Shown piece by piece: positions 16,297 through 32,673 of a DNA stretch of 42,268 nt; the stretch's first letter is position 1; each line of letters begins with the position of its first letter. The position numbers and the translations under genes are program-made. A model generated the notes under the pieces. The model ran no database searches. It had not been told where the DNA came from and saw only the letters and a list, made by a program, of their open reading frames with translations. This DNA is from a virus: positions 1 to 42,268 of the IMG/VR virus record IMGVR_UViG_3300044678_000938. One strand, given 5' to 3'.

Positions 16297-17778
16297 GTGG
16301 ACCTGAAGAAAATTATTATTGACAATTGGAAGAACAATCTCTTTATGAGATTATCACTTAATGGTGAGTTGAGGGAAAAGATTATTGCTGAGACTTCTTT
16401 CTTGGATAAGTATTATGATAAAATCCAATTAAGAAGTCGGGCTTATTGTATTAAAAATAATATCACTGAAGAGACATTACCACAATGTAAATGTAACTGT
16501 GGTAAGCCAGCTCTGTTTAATAATAGCGCGGCCATTAAAGGTTTCCGAATTTATTGTAGCCCAGAGTGTCATAGAAAAGATTATAAAGTTAGTGATATAG
16601 CCCTAGAAAAACTTAAAGATTATGATTGGGTTTACGAACAAAGAGTTGTTAAAGAAAAAAGCATTGAAAAGATAGCAGAGGAATTAAAAATATCTACACC
16701 AACTGTGGATAGATGGCTCATCAAGTATGGAATAAGAGATACAATTAAAAGTGTTAGAAGTATTAGAGGGGAAAAATTAAATCAATTAAAAAATAAAGAA
16801 TTTCTCTATGATCTTTATATTAATCAGGGTTATACTATTAGTAATATCAGTTCAAAAATTGGGATATCATCACAAACTTTAATTTCATGGTTAAGAAAAC
16901 ATGATATTCCTATCAAAAAATCTAATGAATACCAAAGAAAGAATACTTTTACAAGTAAATCTGAAAAAGCTATTGGATGTTATTTTAAAAGATATACTGA
17001 TAATTTGATTATTTACAACGATCGTAAAGTTTTGAATGGAAAAGAACTTGATATTTTCGTCCCTGAACTTGGGTTAGCTGTTGAGTATAATGGGATTTAT
17101 TCGCATATCTATCGCCCGCACGAGACCAAGCCTTGTTTGATAAAAGATGAAAATTATCATATAAACAAGACCGATAAAGGGTTAGAAAAAGGTGTCCAAA
17201 TTATTCATTTATTTTCGTCTGAATGGGAAAATAACAATAAAGTTTGTCGTGGATTAATTCGGAGAAAATTATTAAAAAATGATAGAATTAATGCTAATGA
17301 TTGTGTTATTAAATCCGTTAAAACTGGTGTTGCTAATAGATTTCTAAAATATAATTGCATTGAAGCTGAAATATCCGGTAATTTTAATGCTGTAGGTTTA
17401 TATTATGGAAATTGTTTGATCCAGGTTCTTTGTTATGATGATAACACTATTATTAGGAATTGTTATAAAATAGGTATTAGTATTATTTGTGGATTTAAGA
17501 AATTATTAAATTTTATTGAATGGAATCAAAATGAATCAATTTATTATAAAGTTAATCGCCGGTTTTCTAATGGTAATTTATTGAAGAGTTATGGGTTTAT
17601 TTTGTCTGAAATATTATCCCCGAAATATTATTATACTAATAAGTCTTATGATGAATTATTTGCTGCTGATGTTATAGAAAACATTTGTATCGGTAAGGAG
17701 GATTATTGCTTTTATTGTGAAAAATCTCAATACAAAAAGATCTTTGATTGTGGTTATTTGTTGTTTAAACTGCAATAA
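16297..17778 (+). CDS. Free-standing homing endonuclease, EDxHD/Vsr-like
   Basis: A 493-aa protein read against all its neighbours. The N-terminal part has a Cys cluster typical of a zinc module (C64, C66, C68, C87, C91). Two helix-turn-helix units follow (about 117-145 and 172-206). A nuclease core comes next: E223, 'ELDIFVPELGLAVEYNGIYSH' type strand pair with D252 and E263, then H288 and K291. This resembles the very-short-patch-repair-like EDxHD homing endonucleases common in marine T4-like phages. The start is GTG 16297, without a clear Shine-Dalgarno sequence; the first downstream in-frame ATG would lose 16 residues. By eye it is more AT-rich than its neighbours. It sits in the gp23-gp3 gap, a typical mobile-endonuclease site. 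Confidence 0.85.
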   Translation: MDLKKIIIDNWKNNLFMRLSLNGELREKIIAETSFLDKYYDKIQLRSRAYCIKNNITEETLPQCKCNCGKPALFNNSAAIKGFRIYCSPECHRKDYKVSDIALEKLKDYDWVYEQRVVKEKSIEKIAEELKISTPTVDRWLIKYGIRDTIKSVRSIRGEKLNQLKNKEFLYDLYINQGYTISNISSKIGISSQTLISWLRKHDIPIKKSNEYQRKNTFTSKSEKAIGCYFKRYTDNLIIYNDRKVLNGKELDIFVPELGLAVEYNGIYSHIYRPHETKPCLIKDENYHINKTDKGLEKGVQIIHLFSSEWENNNKVCRGLIRRKLLKNDRINANDCVIKSVKTGVANRFLKYNCIEAEISGNFNAVGLYYGNCLIQVLCYDDNTIIRNCYKIGISIICGFKKLLNFIEWNQNESIYYKVNRRFSNGNLLKSYGFILSEILSPKYYYTNKSYDELFAADVIENICIGKEDYCFYCEKSQYKKIFDCGYLLFKLQ

Positions 17779-28531: not shown

Positions 28532-30631
28532 TTAGTAATAATTAAAAAGATTTAATAAAGTATTCATCTCTTCATCTTCAACGACTTGCCACATGTCTCC
28601 TGTTTTCTCATCAACAATAACATCTTCCGAGAAAGGAGCAAATCCAAATGGTAATACATCCTCTTCCTCTTTATCTTTTTTCTCAGCCAGAAGCCTTTGT
28701 CTGAGATCAATATCAATAATGTCTTTGAAGTATTGGTTGGTTGTTAGCCATGAGAACATTACAAGACATATTACTAGGTCATCATGTCGTCCTGTCTCAG
28801 CCTCAAAGCTAGCTCCTTTTTGGACGAATGTTGTGAGTTCTGAGAAAATATCTAAATCATTAACCATAAGAATATTCTCTTCAATCAGGGTCTTTAATTT
28901 GAGACACCCAATTTTCTTAATATTTTTTTGCATTTTAACACCAAGTTCATACTTACCCGAGAAATTTTGGCCTACAAATTGACCACTTCTAGATTTTGTT
29001 GAACATAATAACATATTTGGATACTCATCATCAATTAGGTCTTTTGCCACCTGATTACCAATATCATTGACTTCACATAACAGAAATGATTGATTATATT
29101 GAAATGCTACTTCTCTTACAACATCGGAATATAATTCAGGTTTAAGTTCATTATTTTTATATTTCGCAACCACATTATATGGTGGATTGGTTATGTCAAT
29201 TATAACAAAAGCGTGATAGTCTTTTTCAACACCTCTTGCGGTATCAACCATTGTTACATACACATGACCAGCTTTTGGTTCTTCATATACATCAAGACTA
29301 TTTCTTTTTCTTATTGCCTGCTTTGTGGTAATGGCACTTAATTTTGAACCTGAAATAAGCGTCTCAGAAGACCCTAAAAATTCAGTATTAAACTCCTGAT
29401 CAAATGCTTTTTGACCAATATTAGCAATTTGGTCAGCTCTCCACTTTTCGTCTCTACCTGGAACGTCATACCAGTTAATCTCTTGAGGGTGGTATCCATT
29501 CCTGCCTTCTTTAGCATCAACCCAAAGTTTATAAAAATGGTTTATACCGTTTGGTGTACTTGTTACTATAATTTTTGAATTCTTACCAGAAGTAATTGTT
29601 GGGTAAACAGACATCATAAAAGTATTCGCAATTTGCTCCGGCACGAAAGCGTATTCATCTAACATTAGTAGATTATAAGTACCACCACGTACAGCAGAGG
29701 CCGAAGTAGAAGATGCTATAACTTTAGATCCATTTTCTAACTCAAGAGAATGTTTATTACACGATTTTACACCTTGCTGCATCCATTTTGGAAGATTTTC
29801 ATAAGCAGTATGCAATCTTGACATAACATCTTTAGCCGAAGATTGTTTGTTGGCAAGAATTGCAACGGATGTTAATTCGTTGAAGAGTAAATTGTGAACG
29901 ATAAACGAAACAGCAGTTGTAGATTTACCACAATTTTCTGTGGGAATAAAGGACTTACCACATAAGAATACATGATCAAAAGAATCTACGGTTAAACATT
30001 GTACAGGAGTAGAATCTGTGGGCTGAACATCTAATATTTTATGGGTTTTCCTAGTTTTAGGATCAAGAGAATATTCTTTGGGAACCTGTGATTCAATAGT
30101 TTCCAGATAATAACCTTTTGTTTTTAATTCATAAAGGTCTTGTGTTGTTGCGTGTGATTCTTCACCGTTTAAAATAATTCGCCAACCATGTTTAAAGTCT
30201 GCAACGATTGTTTCACCATTAAAAATAACTTTATAGCATTTTGTATTATGAAATACTTCTGTTTTATGGATTACCTGTACTGGATTACCATTATTATCAT
30301 AAACAAAATCACCAATAGCTATATCAAAAAGTTCTTTCCAACCTCCTACCGTTGCTATTGGGGTTTTTATTGACAGTGGCTGTCGTGGTAATTTACATAC
30401 ATTGAATCTATTTTTGTAAAAATTATTGAGCATTTCTTCTTGAAAAGAATATGGCTCAAAATTTACTAAACCGTCATTTTGGTTTACAATTTTAATATAA
30501 TTTCTAGCAAAATAAATCGGGTCCTCTGAACACTTAGCAAGCTCTAAAAGTTGTTCTGGTGTCAGCTCAACTTTAATATTAGATCTTTTAAGAAGCGGAT
30601 TACCGAGATAATGTTCTTCTCTTGATGGCAT
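28532..30631 (-). CDS. 17: Terminase large subunit (gp17) containing an intein
   Basis: Packaging ATPase and nuclease (699 codons, 550 aa after removal of a 149-aa intein; T4 gp17 610). The N-terminal part ends 'VCKLPRQ' at residue 84. The intein takes residues 85-233, and 'CGKSTT' resumes the Walker A loop, so the ATPase exists only after splicing. Further along are Walker B 'LLMLDEYAFV', the coupling motif 'VTSTPNG', and nuclease acids in 'TMVDTARG', 'CEVNDIGN' and 'RHDDLV'. The stop of the preceding gene is 3 nt before the ATG. Confidence 0.97.
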   Translation of the reverse strand: MPSREEHYLGNPLLKRSNIKVELTPEQLLELAKCSEDPIYFARNYIKIVNQNDGLVNFEPYSFQEEMLNNFYKNRFNVCKLPRQPLSIKTPIATVGGWKELFDIAIGDFVYDNNGNPVQVIHKTEVFHNTKCYKVIFNGETIVADFKHGWRIILNGEESHATTQDLYELKTKGYYLETIESQVPKEYSLDPKTRKTHKILDVQPTDSTPVQCLTVDSFDHVFLCGKSFIPTENCGKSTTAVSFIVHNLLFNELTSVAILANKQSSAKDVMSRLHTAYENLPKWMQQGVKSCNKHSLELENGSKVIASSTSASAVRGGTYNLLMLDEYAFVPEQIANTFMMSVYPTITSGKNSKIIVTSTPNGINHFYKLWVDAKEGRNGYHPQEINWYDVPGRDEKWRADQIANIGQKAFDQEFNTEFLGSSETLISGSKLSAITTKQAIRKRNSLDVYEEPKAGHVYVTMVDTARGVEKDYHAFVIIDITNPPYNVVAKYKNNELKPELYSDVVREVAFQYNQSFLLCEVNDIGNQVAKDLIDDEYPNMLLCSTKSRSGQFVGQNFSGKYELGVKMQKNIKKIGCLKLKTLIEENILMVNDLDIFSELTTFVQKGASFEAETGRHDDLVICLVMFSWLTTNQYFKDIIDIDLRQRLLAEKKDKEEEDVLPFGFAPFSEDVIVDEKTGDMWQVVEDEEMNTLLNLFNYY
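29933..30379 (-). other. Class 3 mini-intein in the terminase Walker A loop
   Basis: A protein-splicing element of 149 residues between Gln84 and Cys234 of gp17. The first block reads PLSIKTPIATVGG with Pro, not Cys or Ser, at position 1. Block B is 'VADFKHGW' with H64 and W66. Block F is 'VQCLTVDSFDHVFLCG' with Cys128. Block G is 'FIPTEN' with T147 and terminal N149. W66-C128-T147 is the WCT signature of class 3 inteins, which use the block F Cys as first nucleophile. Cys234 follows as the +1 residue. No LAGLIDADG or HNH domain is present. The penultimate residue is Glu148 instead of the common His. Confidence 0.9.
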
Positions 30632-30634
30632 AAA

Positions 30635-32227
30635 TTAGTTACAATTCCAACGGCGTCTAGCTTTACAAATCGGTTTTTTGGGTTCGGATGAGCAACTAAT
30701 ATTGTGCATTTTCATTTGACCTTCTGACCGACTGCAATAAGATTTACGACGATTTTTTCTTTTACCTGTAGGATTCTTTTCGGTAACAGCGGTCTGTAGT
30801 TTAGAACCGGGATTATCTCTCCGATAAGCCTTTACTGCCTTTTGGCTTAGACCATCAACCTTATCTTTGCGGTTGATTTTCTGCCAGGCTTCCTCTTCAT
30901 TAACTTGAACCAGTGGCATTTTTGGATTCAGTTCGCTCACCCTAAAGCTAATGACTTTAGAGCCAGGATATACTTTTTCAACAGCGGCAAAGATCTCTAG
31001 TCTTTTGGGAATTCTTACTTGAGGGAAGAACATCTGAGTAACAATAATTTTGTTTCTCCAGTTAAGCATAATATTCATTAATTGACCACTTTGAGATTGA
31101 ATTCTTACACCTTCAGGTAGATACTCTTCAGACTTTGTTCCCCAACTATTAGAGCCAACTTTACGACACTTTGAAAGAGCCAAACTTCCATATGCACTAG
31201 GCCAGACATCGTAGCGAGCCTTTACTTTATGATAACAAGCATCTTTTTTTGATTTTTCTTTTTTGGCTTCGTGGATTACTTCTTCGGTTTTAACATAAGT
31301 TGGTTTAGTTGCTCCACTTTTTTCCGGTTGGCTTGGATCCTTTCTATTCTTTCTTTTAAAAGCTCTTTCCTCTTCCTTGTCTGACATATTTCTTGCCATC
31401 TTAGAGCTACCACATTTTGGTGTGGATTTCTGTCCTGGTTGTCTGGCACAAGGAGCGCCTGCATAAGGCCCACCTAATTGAACCCAACCCGGAACCTTTC
31501 TTCCTGTTTTTGGGTCTGTTCCACTTGATTTACTAATCCAATCTCTAAGACTATTATCCCCAGATTTTGTCTCTTCTTTTATAGGTGATTTCTCTACTTT
31601 AGAAAGTTTGGAATAATAATCCGGTCTTTCTGCTAGATGCTGAAGTGCGATGGATTCGGCCTCACTTTTATCTGTGGTGTGTTCCATCTCAACTTTTATT
31701 CCACGCTTCAAAGCTTTCTCAATTCTTTCTGGAGTTGTTTTGTGCTTTTTTGCGATTTCATTGACACTCTTATGGGGCTTCATGTCACAATCACAACCCA
31801 TCTCAGCAAGAATTCTTTCTGTTAGAGTGGATTCTTTAAGTTTTGGTAGATCAACACCTACTTTCTTTTTAACTAATTCTTGATTAGGGAGTTGTTTCCT
31901 CTGAGAATCTGACATTCTTCTGAGTTTGTCAGAACCAACTGCGGGTCTTGATTCTTTATGCTTTTCTGGATTAATACTAAAACTTGACGCTTCGTCTAGC
32001 TCTTCATCCGAACCCAGATACTCAGCAGCAGTATCAATATAATCAGCACATTTTGTGATTTTTGACTGAACCCACGCCGGAAGTTGTTGATCTGATTTGT
32101 TTACTATCTTTCTTAGTTTTGAAACTGATCTCTCAATACTATCCAGCTCAAGCCGAGCCATATAACCTTCATCGTCTTTCTTTTTACCAGACTGAATTTC
32201 TTTATGGTCTTCGGAAAATATTGCCAT
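30635..32227 (-). CDS. Mosaic multidomain protein between terminase genes
   Basis: A 530-aa protein built of short modules that I recognise from marine phage proteins. A helical 'YMARLELDSIE...LPAWVQSKITKCADYIDTA' unit lies at about 22-70. A DUF5661-like 'EHTTDKSEAESIALQHLAERPDYY' type unit is at 182-206. A Cys-containing unit (225-312) has 'VPGWVQLGGPYAGAPCAR'. A 'DACYHKVKARYDVWPSAYGS' unit is at 329-348. A 'LMNIMLNWRNKIIVTQMFFP' unit is at 383-402. A Cys/Arg-rich end (446-530) has 'VTEKNPTGKRKNRRKSYCSR'. Function unknown; a virion or internal-head role is a guess from the late promoter and location. Confidence 0.6.
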   Translation of the reverse strand: MAIFSEDHKEIQSGKKKDDEGYMARLELDSIERSVSKLRKIVNKSDQQLPAWVQSKITKCADYIDTAAEYLGSDEELDEASSFSINPEKHKESRPAVGSDKLRRMSDSQRKQLPNQELVKKKVGVDLPKLKESTLTERILAEMGCDCDMKPHKSVNEIAKKHKTTPERIEKALKRGIKVEMEHTTDKSEAESIALQHLAERPDYYSKLSKVEKSPIKEETKSGDNSLRDWISKSSGTDPKTGRKVPGWVQLGGPYAGAPCARQPGQKSTPKCGSSKMARNMSDKEEERAFKRKNRKDPSQPEKSGATKPTYVKTEEVIHEAKKEKSKKDACYHKVKARYDVWPSAYGSLALSKCRKVGSNSWGTKSEEYLPEGVRIQSQSGQLMNIMLNWRNKIIVTQMFFPQVRIPKRLEIFAAVEKVYPGSKVISFRVSELNPKMPLVQVNEEEAWQKINRKDKVDGLSQKAVKAYRRDNPGSKLQTAVTEKNPTGKRKNRRKSYCSRSEGQMKMHNISCSSEPKKPICKARRRWNCN

Positions 32228-32244
32228 TAGGATACAATTAATAA

Positions 32245-32673
32245 TTATTTATTATTGATTTGTGCTTTTAGCATTTTAATAGCTTCTGCGGTAGTTCCAA
32301 TAAAGACTGCGTTGTTATTTGTTACGTTATTAGTGGTCATCTTTTCAGTCTCCATATCTTTTAACTTGACATGAATATCAATAATTTTCTCTGCGGAATC
32401 AACAGTTTGTTTAATAAGTTGAGCGACGACTTCGTATGCCCTGGCCTGATCTGTTTCTTGTGCCAGTTCAAGAGCACCATCTAGAGCCTCCTGGCTTTTA
32501 GAAATGGTTGCATTAAGAACACCAAAAACATAATCAATGTCTTTGTCAAGTCTTGAAATTTCAGGATTAACAACAACCTCTACTGGAGATTCTTTTACAA
32601 TAGAAGTTTCTTCGGGTGTGGATTCAATACCAAAAGTGGCGTCTAGTTCTTTAAATTTTTTCTGAGTAGCCAT
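32245..32673 (-). CDS. 16: Terminase small subunit (gp16)
   Basis: DNA-recognition subunit of the packaging motor (142 aa; T4 164). The central helices 'ALELAQETDQARAYEVVAQLIKQTVDSAEKI' type sequence and the end 'AVFIGTTAEAIKMLKAQ' fit gp16. It overlaps gp15 by 1 nt (TAATG). In T4 gene 17 follows directly; here a 530-aa gene separates them. Confidence 0.93.
   Translation of the reverse strand: MATQKKFKELDATFGIESTPEETSIVKESPVEVVVNPEISRLDKDIDYVFGVLNATISKSQEALDGALELAQETDQARAYEVVAQLIKQTVDSAEKIIDIHVKLKDMETEKMTTNNVTNNNAVFIGTTAEAIKMLKAQINNK
32246..32253 (-). promoter_or_regulatory. Late promoter AATAAATA before the mosaic gene
   Basis: Matches NATAAATA, 19 nt upstream of the start at 32227, at the end of gp16. 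It would separate expression of the mosaic protein and gp17 from the neck genes. Confidence 0.5.

Follow-up and report, generated by a model that had tools for sequence, protein, structure and literature searches.

The gp17 locus and its insert

The window, by which we mean the whole stretch of 42,268 bases that was analyzed (IMG/VR record IMGVR_UViG_3300044678_000938), has a T4-like gene order: small terminase, a 530-aa protein, gp17, tail sheath, tail tube, portal, head protease, scaffold, and major head protein. That gene order, the Terminase_6N/6C domains and the homology to T4 gp17 place the gp17 product among the T4-type terminase large subunits, and its frame is uninterrupted over all 699 aa (Table 1). 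The named relatives closest to this gp17 are mostly cyanophages (Kyanoviridae), at ~50-56% identity, which makes a cyanobacterial host likely for the phage.

Two other genes in the window deserve mention. The 530-aa protein (30635-32227, minus strand), encoded between the small terminase gene and gp17, has PHROG matches that are all of unknown function; in the cyanophages B23 and Bellamy, a hypothetical gene likewise lies directly upstream of gp17. A free-standing homing endonuclease-like gene (16297-17775, plus strand, 493 aa, PHROG homing endonuclease/HNH) is on the strand opposite to gp17, adjoining the major head protein gene and ~11 kb away from gp17.

Table 1. Features of the gp17 locus and of its intein in the window, with the evidence for each.
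Feature	Position	Strand	Evidence
Small terminase gene	32245-32673		T4-like neighbour of gp17
gp17-type terminase large subunit precursor, 699 aa (550 aa after excision)	28532..30631	-	Open ORF; T4 gp17 (3ezk) E 7e-85; Pfam Terminase_6N and 6C
N-extein, 84 aa, C-terminal KLPRQ	30380..30631	-	Aligned to T4 gp17 as far as SRQ
Class 3 mini-intein, 149 aa, without homing endonuclease	29933..30379	-	Sequence match, translation, RQ-site alignment, motif check, fold model, Foldseek
Pro1 (A:1), non-nucleophilic first intein residue	30377..30379	-	Translation, RQ-site alignment
His64 (B:10)	30188..30190	-	Invariant in RQ-site alignment
Trp66 (B:12), W of WCT	30182..30184	-	Invariant in RQ-site alignment
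Cys128 (F:4), C of WCT, expected initiating nucleophile	29996..29998	-	Invariant; role by homology (PMC5222942)
Thr147 (G:5), T of WCT	29939..29941	-	Invariant in 12-intein alignment; replaced in L084-L086
Glu148 (G:6), penultimate position, usually His	29936..29938	-	Translation, RQ-site alignment
Asn149 (G:7), terminal residue, predicted to cyclise	29933..29935	-	Translation, RQ-site alignment
Cys+1 (G:8), predicted second branch point	29930..29932	-	Translation
Gly-Lys of Walker A loop; GK/T site of other gp17 inteins immediately after	29924..29929	-	T4 gp17 alignment, GK/T inteins
C-extein, begins CGKSTTAV, 466 aa + stop	28532..29932	-	Aligned to T4 gp17 from LGKTT

A preliminary description of this DNA, made from the sequence alone, had proposed that 149 residues between LPRQ and CGKST split the ATP-binding P-loop of a T4-like terminase, and its coordinates are borne out; the insert translates as PLSIKTPIAT...SFIPTEN. 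Marking junctions by a slash, the window reads KLPRQ/PLSIKTPIAT...FIPTEN/CGKSTTAV. When T4 gp17 (3ezk) is aligned with phmmer, it covers query residues 4-84 and 234-647 and skips residues 85-233 alone; at the insertion point T4 gp17 reads SRQ/LGKTT. In L018, which at 79% identity is the nearest relative that is free of inteins, KLPRQSGKSTT is unbroken and the DNA is continuous through the site. Relatives without the insert thus have an exact excision junction, both in T4 gp17 and in L018, and the excised protein has the predicted length (699-149 = 550 aa). Removing the intein in silico also gives PRQ[SC]GKST in those relatives with an insert at the same site (RQ-site inteins, below) that have the N-terminal junction on the contig.

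A class 3 mini-intein with cysteine at +1

By sequence, the insert is matched best in the PDB by DnaB inteins of class 3, from M. smegmatis and M. chimaera (E 3.8e-16 to 1.1e-14). By fold, an AlphaFold2 model of the intein built on a 14-sequence alignment (mean pLDDT 95.5) has class 3 DnaB inteins as all of its 7 best Foldseek matches, including 6bs8, 6rix, and 6riy, with 6bs8 leading the list (TM 0.78 by query, 0.92 by target). A model of the 699-aa precursor was of low confidence (pLDDT 57.8) and was not used. The insert has no intein match in NCBIfam and Pfam, but this means little, since sequence, fold, and alignment do identify an intein.

The class 3 assignment of the preliminary description agrees with these matches and with the catalytic positions. 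There is no N-terminal nucleophile, as both translation and alignment verify, and the W-C-T set is complete and accompanied by a Cys at +1, with W66 two residues past H64. In an alignment of 12 RQ-site inteins, in which the other members are 35-49% identical to the window intein, H64, W66, C128, T147, and N149 are among 20 invariant columns, and so are Cys48 and Cys140. W66, C128, and T147 also align with the WCT residues of the M. smegmatis and M. chimaera class 3 inteins. A class 1 reading was dropped in view of Pro1 and the Cys at F:4.

Two residues depart from the textbook pattern. The original definition of class 3 has Ser or Thr at +1, where the window intein has Cys. In 2016, Bvi IcmO was named as the single class 3 intein with Cys+1, and it uses the class 3 pathway (PMC5222942); by 2020 the +1 residue of class 3 was given as Cys, Ser, or Thr (PMC7891396). 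Given that precedent and the wider definition, Cys+1 is a variation and not an exclusion from the class. The penultimate His at G:6, which is common to inteins without defining a class, is here Glu148; mycobacteriophage class 1 inteins often lack it too (PMC5050341).

The absence of an endonuclease domain, also proposed before, holds as well: the 149 residues contain neither a LAGLIDADG motif nor a Pfam endonuclease match, while the same Pfam search does match LAGLIDADG_3 in two relatives (L079 and the GK/T intein of L032). For comparison, 82.5% of 1,701 surveyed class 3 inteins have LAGLIDADG motifs (PMC7891396).

How does the intein compare with those already characterized? M. smegmatis DnaBi1 and M. 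chimaera DnaB1 (6bs8, 6rix) are likewise class 3 mini-inteins of similar size with WCT, but they sit in the DnaB helicase and have the penultimate His, whereas the window intein sits in gp17 and has Glu; the M. smegmatis intein has Ser at +1 (PMC5222942), as opposed to Cys. Bvi IcmO is also a class 3 mini-intein with Cys+1, and it splices via the block F pathway (PMC5222942). Its host protein differs from gp17, and the likeness is drawn from its published description.

P-loop inteins already known in gp17

The window phage is not alone in having a class 3 intein in the gp17 P-loop: such inteins are already known from T4-type gp17. Among named phages they occur in Synechococcus phage B23 (RQCGK/.../TTTT), in the Krischvirus phages Makalu_002 and AV108 (RQLGK/.../TTAV), in a Klebsiella jumbo phage (RQMGK/.../TTVA), and in RaK2, which we matched as a tblastn hit only and whose terminase intein was noted previously (PMC5259590). 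All of those examined are 330-343 aa long, with LAGLIDADG-type motifs and Thr+1, and they are inserted at GK/T, so that the window site RQ/C is three residues upstream of theirs. The B23 intein (MN695335, L002) has its class 3 signature, its T4-type gp17, and its P-loop position in common with the window intein, and at a looser E-value limit it is the top-ranked named-phage match, at 39% identity. The B23 and Krischvirus inteins differ in their GK/T site, their ~330 aa with LAGLIDADG, their Thr+1, and their penultimate His.

The mycobacteriophage inteins TerL1-a and TerL1-b are also P-loop terminase inteins, but not in a T4-type gp17. TerL1-a lies between Lys and Thr, that is, at GK/T (Kelley et al., PMC5050341), and TerL1-b is only one residue from it, so neither is the RQ/C site. 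What is unusual here is the combination of the RQ/C site, Cys+1, the penultimate Glu, and relatives with tandem inteins.

A family of inteins at the RQ site

We searched IMG/VR for the site with an alignment query and with DNA patterns that span the C-terminal junction; since the collection scans were limited to patterns, the contig counts are lower bounds. The RQ/[SC]GK site is filled in at least ~26 further IMG/VR contigs of T4-like gp17, some of them cut off at a contig edge. Complete RQ-site inteins are 144-153 aa long and have no homing endonuclease, with L079 as the sole exception. The L079 intein has an RQ/S site and a class 3 signature in common with the window family, but it is 337 aa long and includes a LAGLIDADG_3 domain. 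Several pattern matches were chance or uninformative on inspection (L050, L065, L066, L067, L076, L078, L080).

Cys occupies +1 in the window, in the group of L032, L056, L059, and L061, and in L084-L086; the other RQ-site inteins have Ser there. At the penultimate position E, Q, H, I, M, and K all occur. Most of the aligned members have a residue other than His, and Glu is found in the window only, among the RQ-site members found. L084, L085, and L086 (IPQKN/CGKST) have lost the Thr at G:5 while keeping the Trp and Cys of WCT; drift of this kind is tolerated in the family, and some members could be inactive.

A tblastn search of three RQ-site inteins against 50,697 named-phage records found no RQ-site intein among the best matches listed, which were GK/T inteins of T4-type phages and inteins in other phage proteins. 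Scanning IMG/VR with the window intein as a single sequence gave no match, and a scan of genome contigs turned up one class 3 intein only, a distant one from an Acidimicrobiia MAG. As far as open-licence papers are concerned, RQ/[CS]GK is a previously unlisted insertion site and family.

Other inteins came up along the way. Another gene has a class 3 intein at HGK/S, which exists at that one site both as a 134-aa mini-intein and in a 330-aa form (L105, L109, L112, and L114 vs. L135). The gp17 of L079 contains a second, class 1-like mini-intein of 147 aa (EYG/CFTHLTT...VVSHN/CEF).

Tandem inteins around Cys-Gly-Lys

Both sites are occupied in five contigs, all distinct IMG/VR records (L032, L033, L034, L035, L056). 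The layout is an RQ mini-intein, the three residues Cys-Gly-Lys, and a LAGLIDADG intein of class 3 at GK/ST (FIPTMN/CGK/ALALDT...FIPTHN/STTAV). In L034 the start of the first intein is missing, and the L056 locus stops just short of the end of the second. In L032, L033, and L035 the gene is one uninterrupted frame of 1,472-1,473 codons, with a third intein in the C-motif (VVS/CVTKDT...LGHQ/TPNG). With only 9 bases between the two P-loop sites, either intein would be expected to disrupt the homing target of the other. Neighbouring inteins are known to interfere in haloarchaeal MCM (PMC10643990). In a brief search of the open-licence literature, we found no precedent for a three-residue extein between two inteins.

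The C-motif intein is also present in L034, and more generally a class 1-like intein at this position (VVS/CVTKDT...NNFLGHQ/TPxG) occurs in L019, L022, L023, L032, L036, L077, and L084. It has Cys1 and a C-terminal Gln, and its length is 440 aa in L019 and L022, reduced to 254 aa in L023 and to 331 aa in L077. The gp17 frame of L077 ends, after QEFE, with SVSSETLIEIEEDGVRKIVTIGEIYANMEE and a stop codon, resembling the short N-fragment of a split intein, perhaps of the AceL-TerL kind.

Evolution of the RQ-site inteins

On the extein tree, the window gp17 is closest to L022 (83% identity) and L024, both of which carry a GK/T intein and not an RQ intein; L018, L019, and L036 have neither. RQ occupancy requires at least five changes on this tree. 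Such a patchy distribution among gp17 alleles suggests that the RQ-site intein is an optional passenger, and its endonuclease-free state suggests that movement, if any, would be by recombination of flanking DNA or by means of the endonuclease of a neighbouring intein.

The intein diverges more than the extein (window vs. L023, dN 0.54 compared with 0.16-0.18). Intein dN/dS ranges over 0.09-0.38 across pairs, although dS is almost saturated in the majority of them. The three low-dS pairs give 0.12-0.26 for the intein, compared with 0.0-0.15 for their flanking exteins. These values fit a splicing domain that is constrained yet evolving faster than gp17.

Was the RQ site entered only once? In a larger intein tree, a single clade of RQ-site mini-inteins is not rejected (p-AU 0.30), while a clade that includes L079 as well is rejected weakly (p-AU 0.042). 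More than one entry into the site is therefore probable, and a single origin of all RQ-site inteins including L079 is unsupported. In a smaller tree with fewer GK/T inteins, the mini-inteins grouped at 86/81, a group that is lost in the larger tree. The window intein has a long branch.

Compatible with all this, the RQ/C insert could be a GK/T class 3 intein that lost its endonuclease and was displaced by 9 bases, as opposed to an independent invasion. The B23 GK/T intein is among the closest named-phage relatives of the window intein, and several GK/T inteins of IMG/VR T4-like gp17 also begin with Pro. We nevertheless regard displacement as a possible but rather improbable origin, because one clade of RQ-site mini-inteins is not rejected, because five contigs hold both inteins together, and because L079 is an RQ-site intein with a LAGLIDADG of its own.

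Proposed splicing and alternative readings

With high probability, the insert is an endonuclease-free class 3 intein, which the gp17 precursor loses by self-excision. RQ-site inteins are probably active, since their catalytic residues are almost invariant and their dN/dS is well below 1. As to the chemistry, we infer that His64 and Trp66 would prime the Gln84-Pro1 bond, and that Cys128 would attack it, forming the branched thioester of block F. Transfer of the acyl group to Cys+1 would follow, from thioester to thioester, as opposed to the usual Ser/Thr ester; Asn149 would cyclise without the usual penultimate His; and an S-to-N shift would restore PRQ-CGKST.

The dependence of packaging on this reaction we infer from where the insert sits. 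The Walker A Lys236 (precursor numbering) lies beyond it, so unspliced gp17 should be inactive: with its Walker A loop split, the precursor should neither bind ATP nor package DNA. Because the insert is in the ATP-binding loop, the packaging motor probably works only once the insert has left. An immobile passenger would in this way be kept and be obliged to go on splicing, in an RQ/[CS]GK family that differs in site from the endonuclease-bearing class 3 inteins at GK/[ST], three residues away, and can coexist with them.

Is the intein more than a passenger? It could be active and retained because slow or redox-sensitive splicing delays the activation of the packaging motor. A split P-loop, thiols at both branch points, and the invariant Cys48 and Cys140 are in line with such a role, and the closest solved relative, the M. 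smegmatis class 3 DnaB intein, is one of two DnaB inteins reported to be stress-responsive (PMC6195587). But gp17 alleles at 79-83% identity either lack the RQ intein (L018, L019) or have a GK/T intein instead (L022, L024), which makes it look optional and not a required control, and we consider this regulatory role unlikely.

Even less probable, to the point that we would be surprised by it, is that the class 3 element is decaying or inactive and that the gp17 is non-functional or cleaved only. The Glu in place of the penultimate His, the Cys+1, and the long branch could be taken as signs of decay, and a class 3 intein pseudogene, Arsp-FB24 Arth_1007, is on record (PMC3196547). Against this stand the open frame, the complete catalytic set, the intact C-extein, and the purifying selection in relatives, and most RQ-site members have another residue in place of the penultimate His anyway. 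Moreover, gp17 is essential in T4. As for readings other than an intein (a structural domain that stays in gp17, an in-frame RNA intron, an assembly artefact), we found no specific support for any of them and give them almost no credence, given the HINT fold, the splicing residues at both edges of the insert, the conservation at the protein level with dN/dS below 1, and the recurrence of the arrangement in many independent contigs.

What the RQ site may mean

Returning to the probably self-excising class 3 intein, a compact natural mini-intein of this class with Cys+1 may find a use in protein engineering, and where a single Cys+1 case was named in 2016, the RQ-site family adds several more candidates. 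The tandem relatives, with their Cys-Gly-Lys spacer, offer a test of minimum extein length and of interference between neighbouring inteins (cf. PMC10643990).

For the phages, the finding is a new insertion site and a largely endonuclease-free intein family in the P-loop of an ATPase whose structure is well studied, the T4-type packaging motor. One can speculate further, and we do so with considerable doubt, that the RQ/[CS]GK mini-inteins are not mere relics but redox- or time-gated packaging switches in T4-like (probably cyano-) phages, which would also shield the gene from the endonuclease-bearing GK/T intein. The gating idea comes from the two thiol branch points and the relaxed penultimate residue, and the protection idea from the way in which the RQ mini-intein interrupts the adjacent GK/T homing site; in the tandem cases, making the P-loop would then require a three-residue extein to be joined at both ends.
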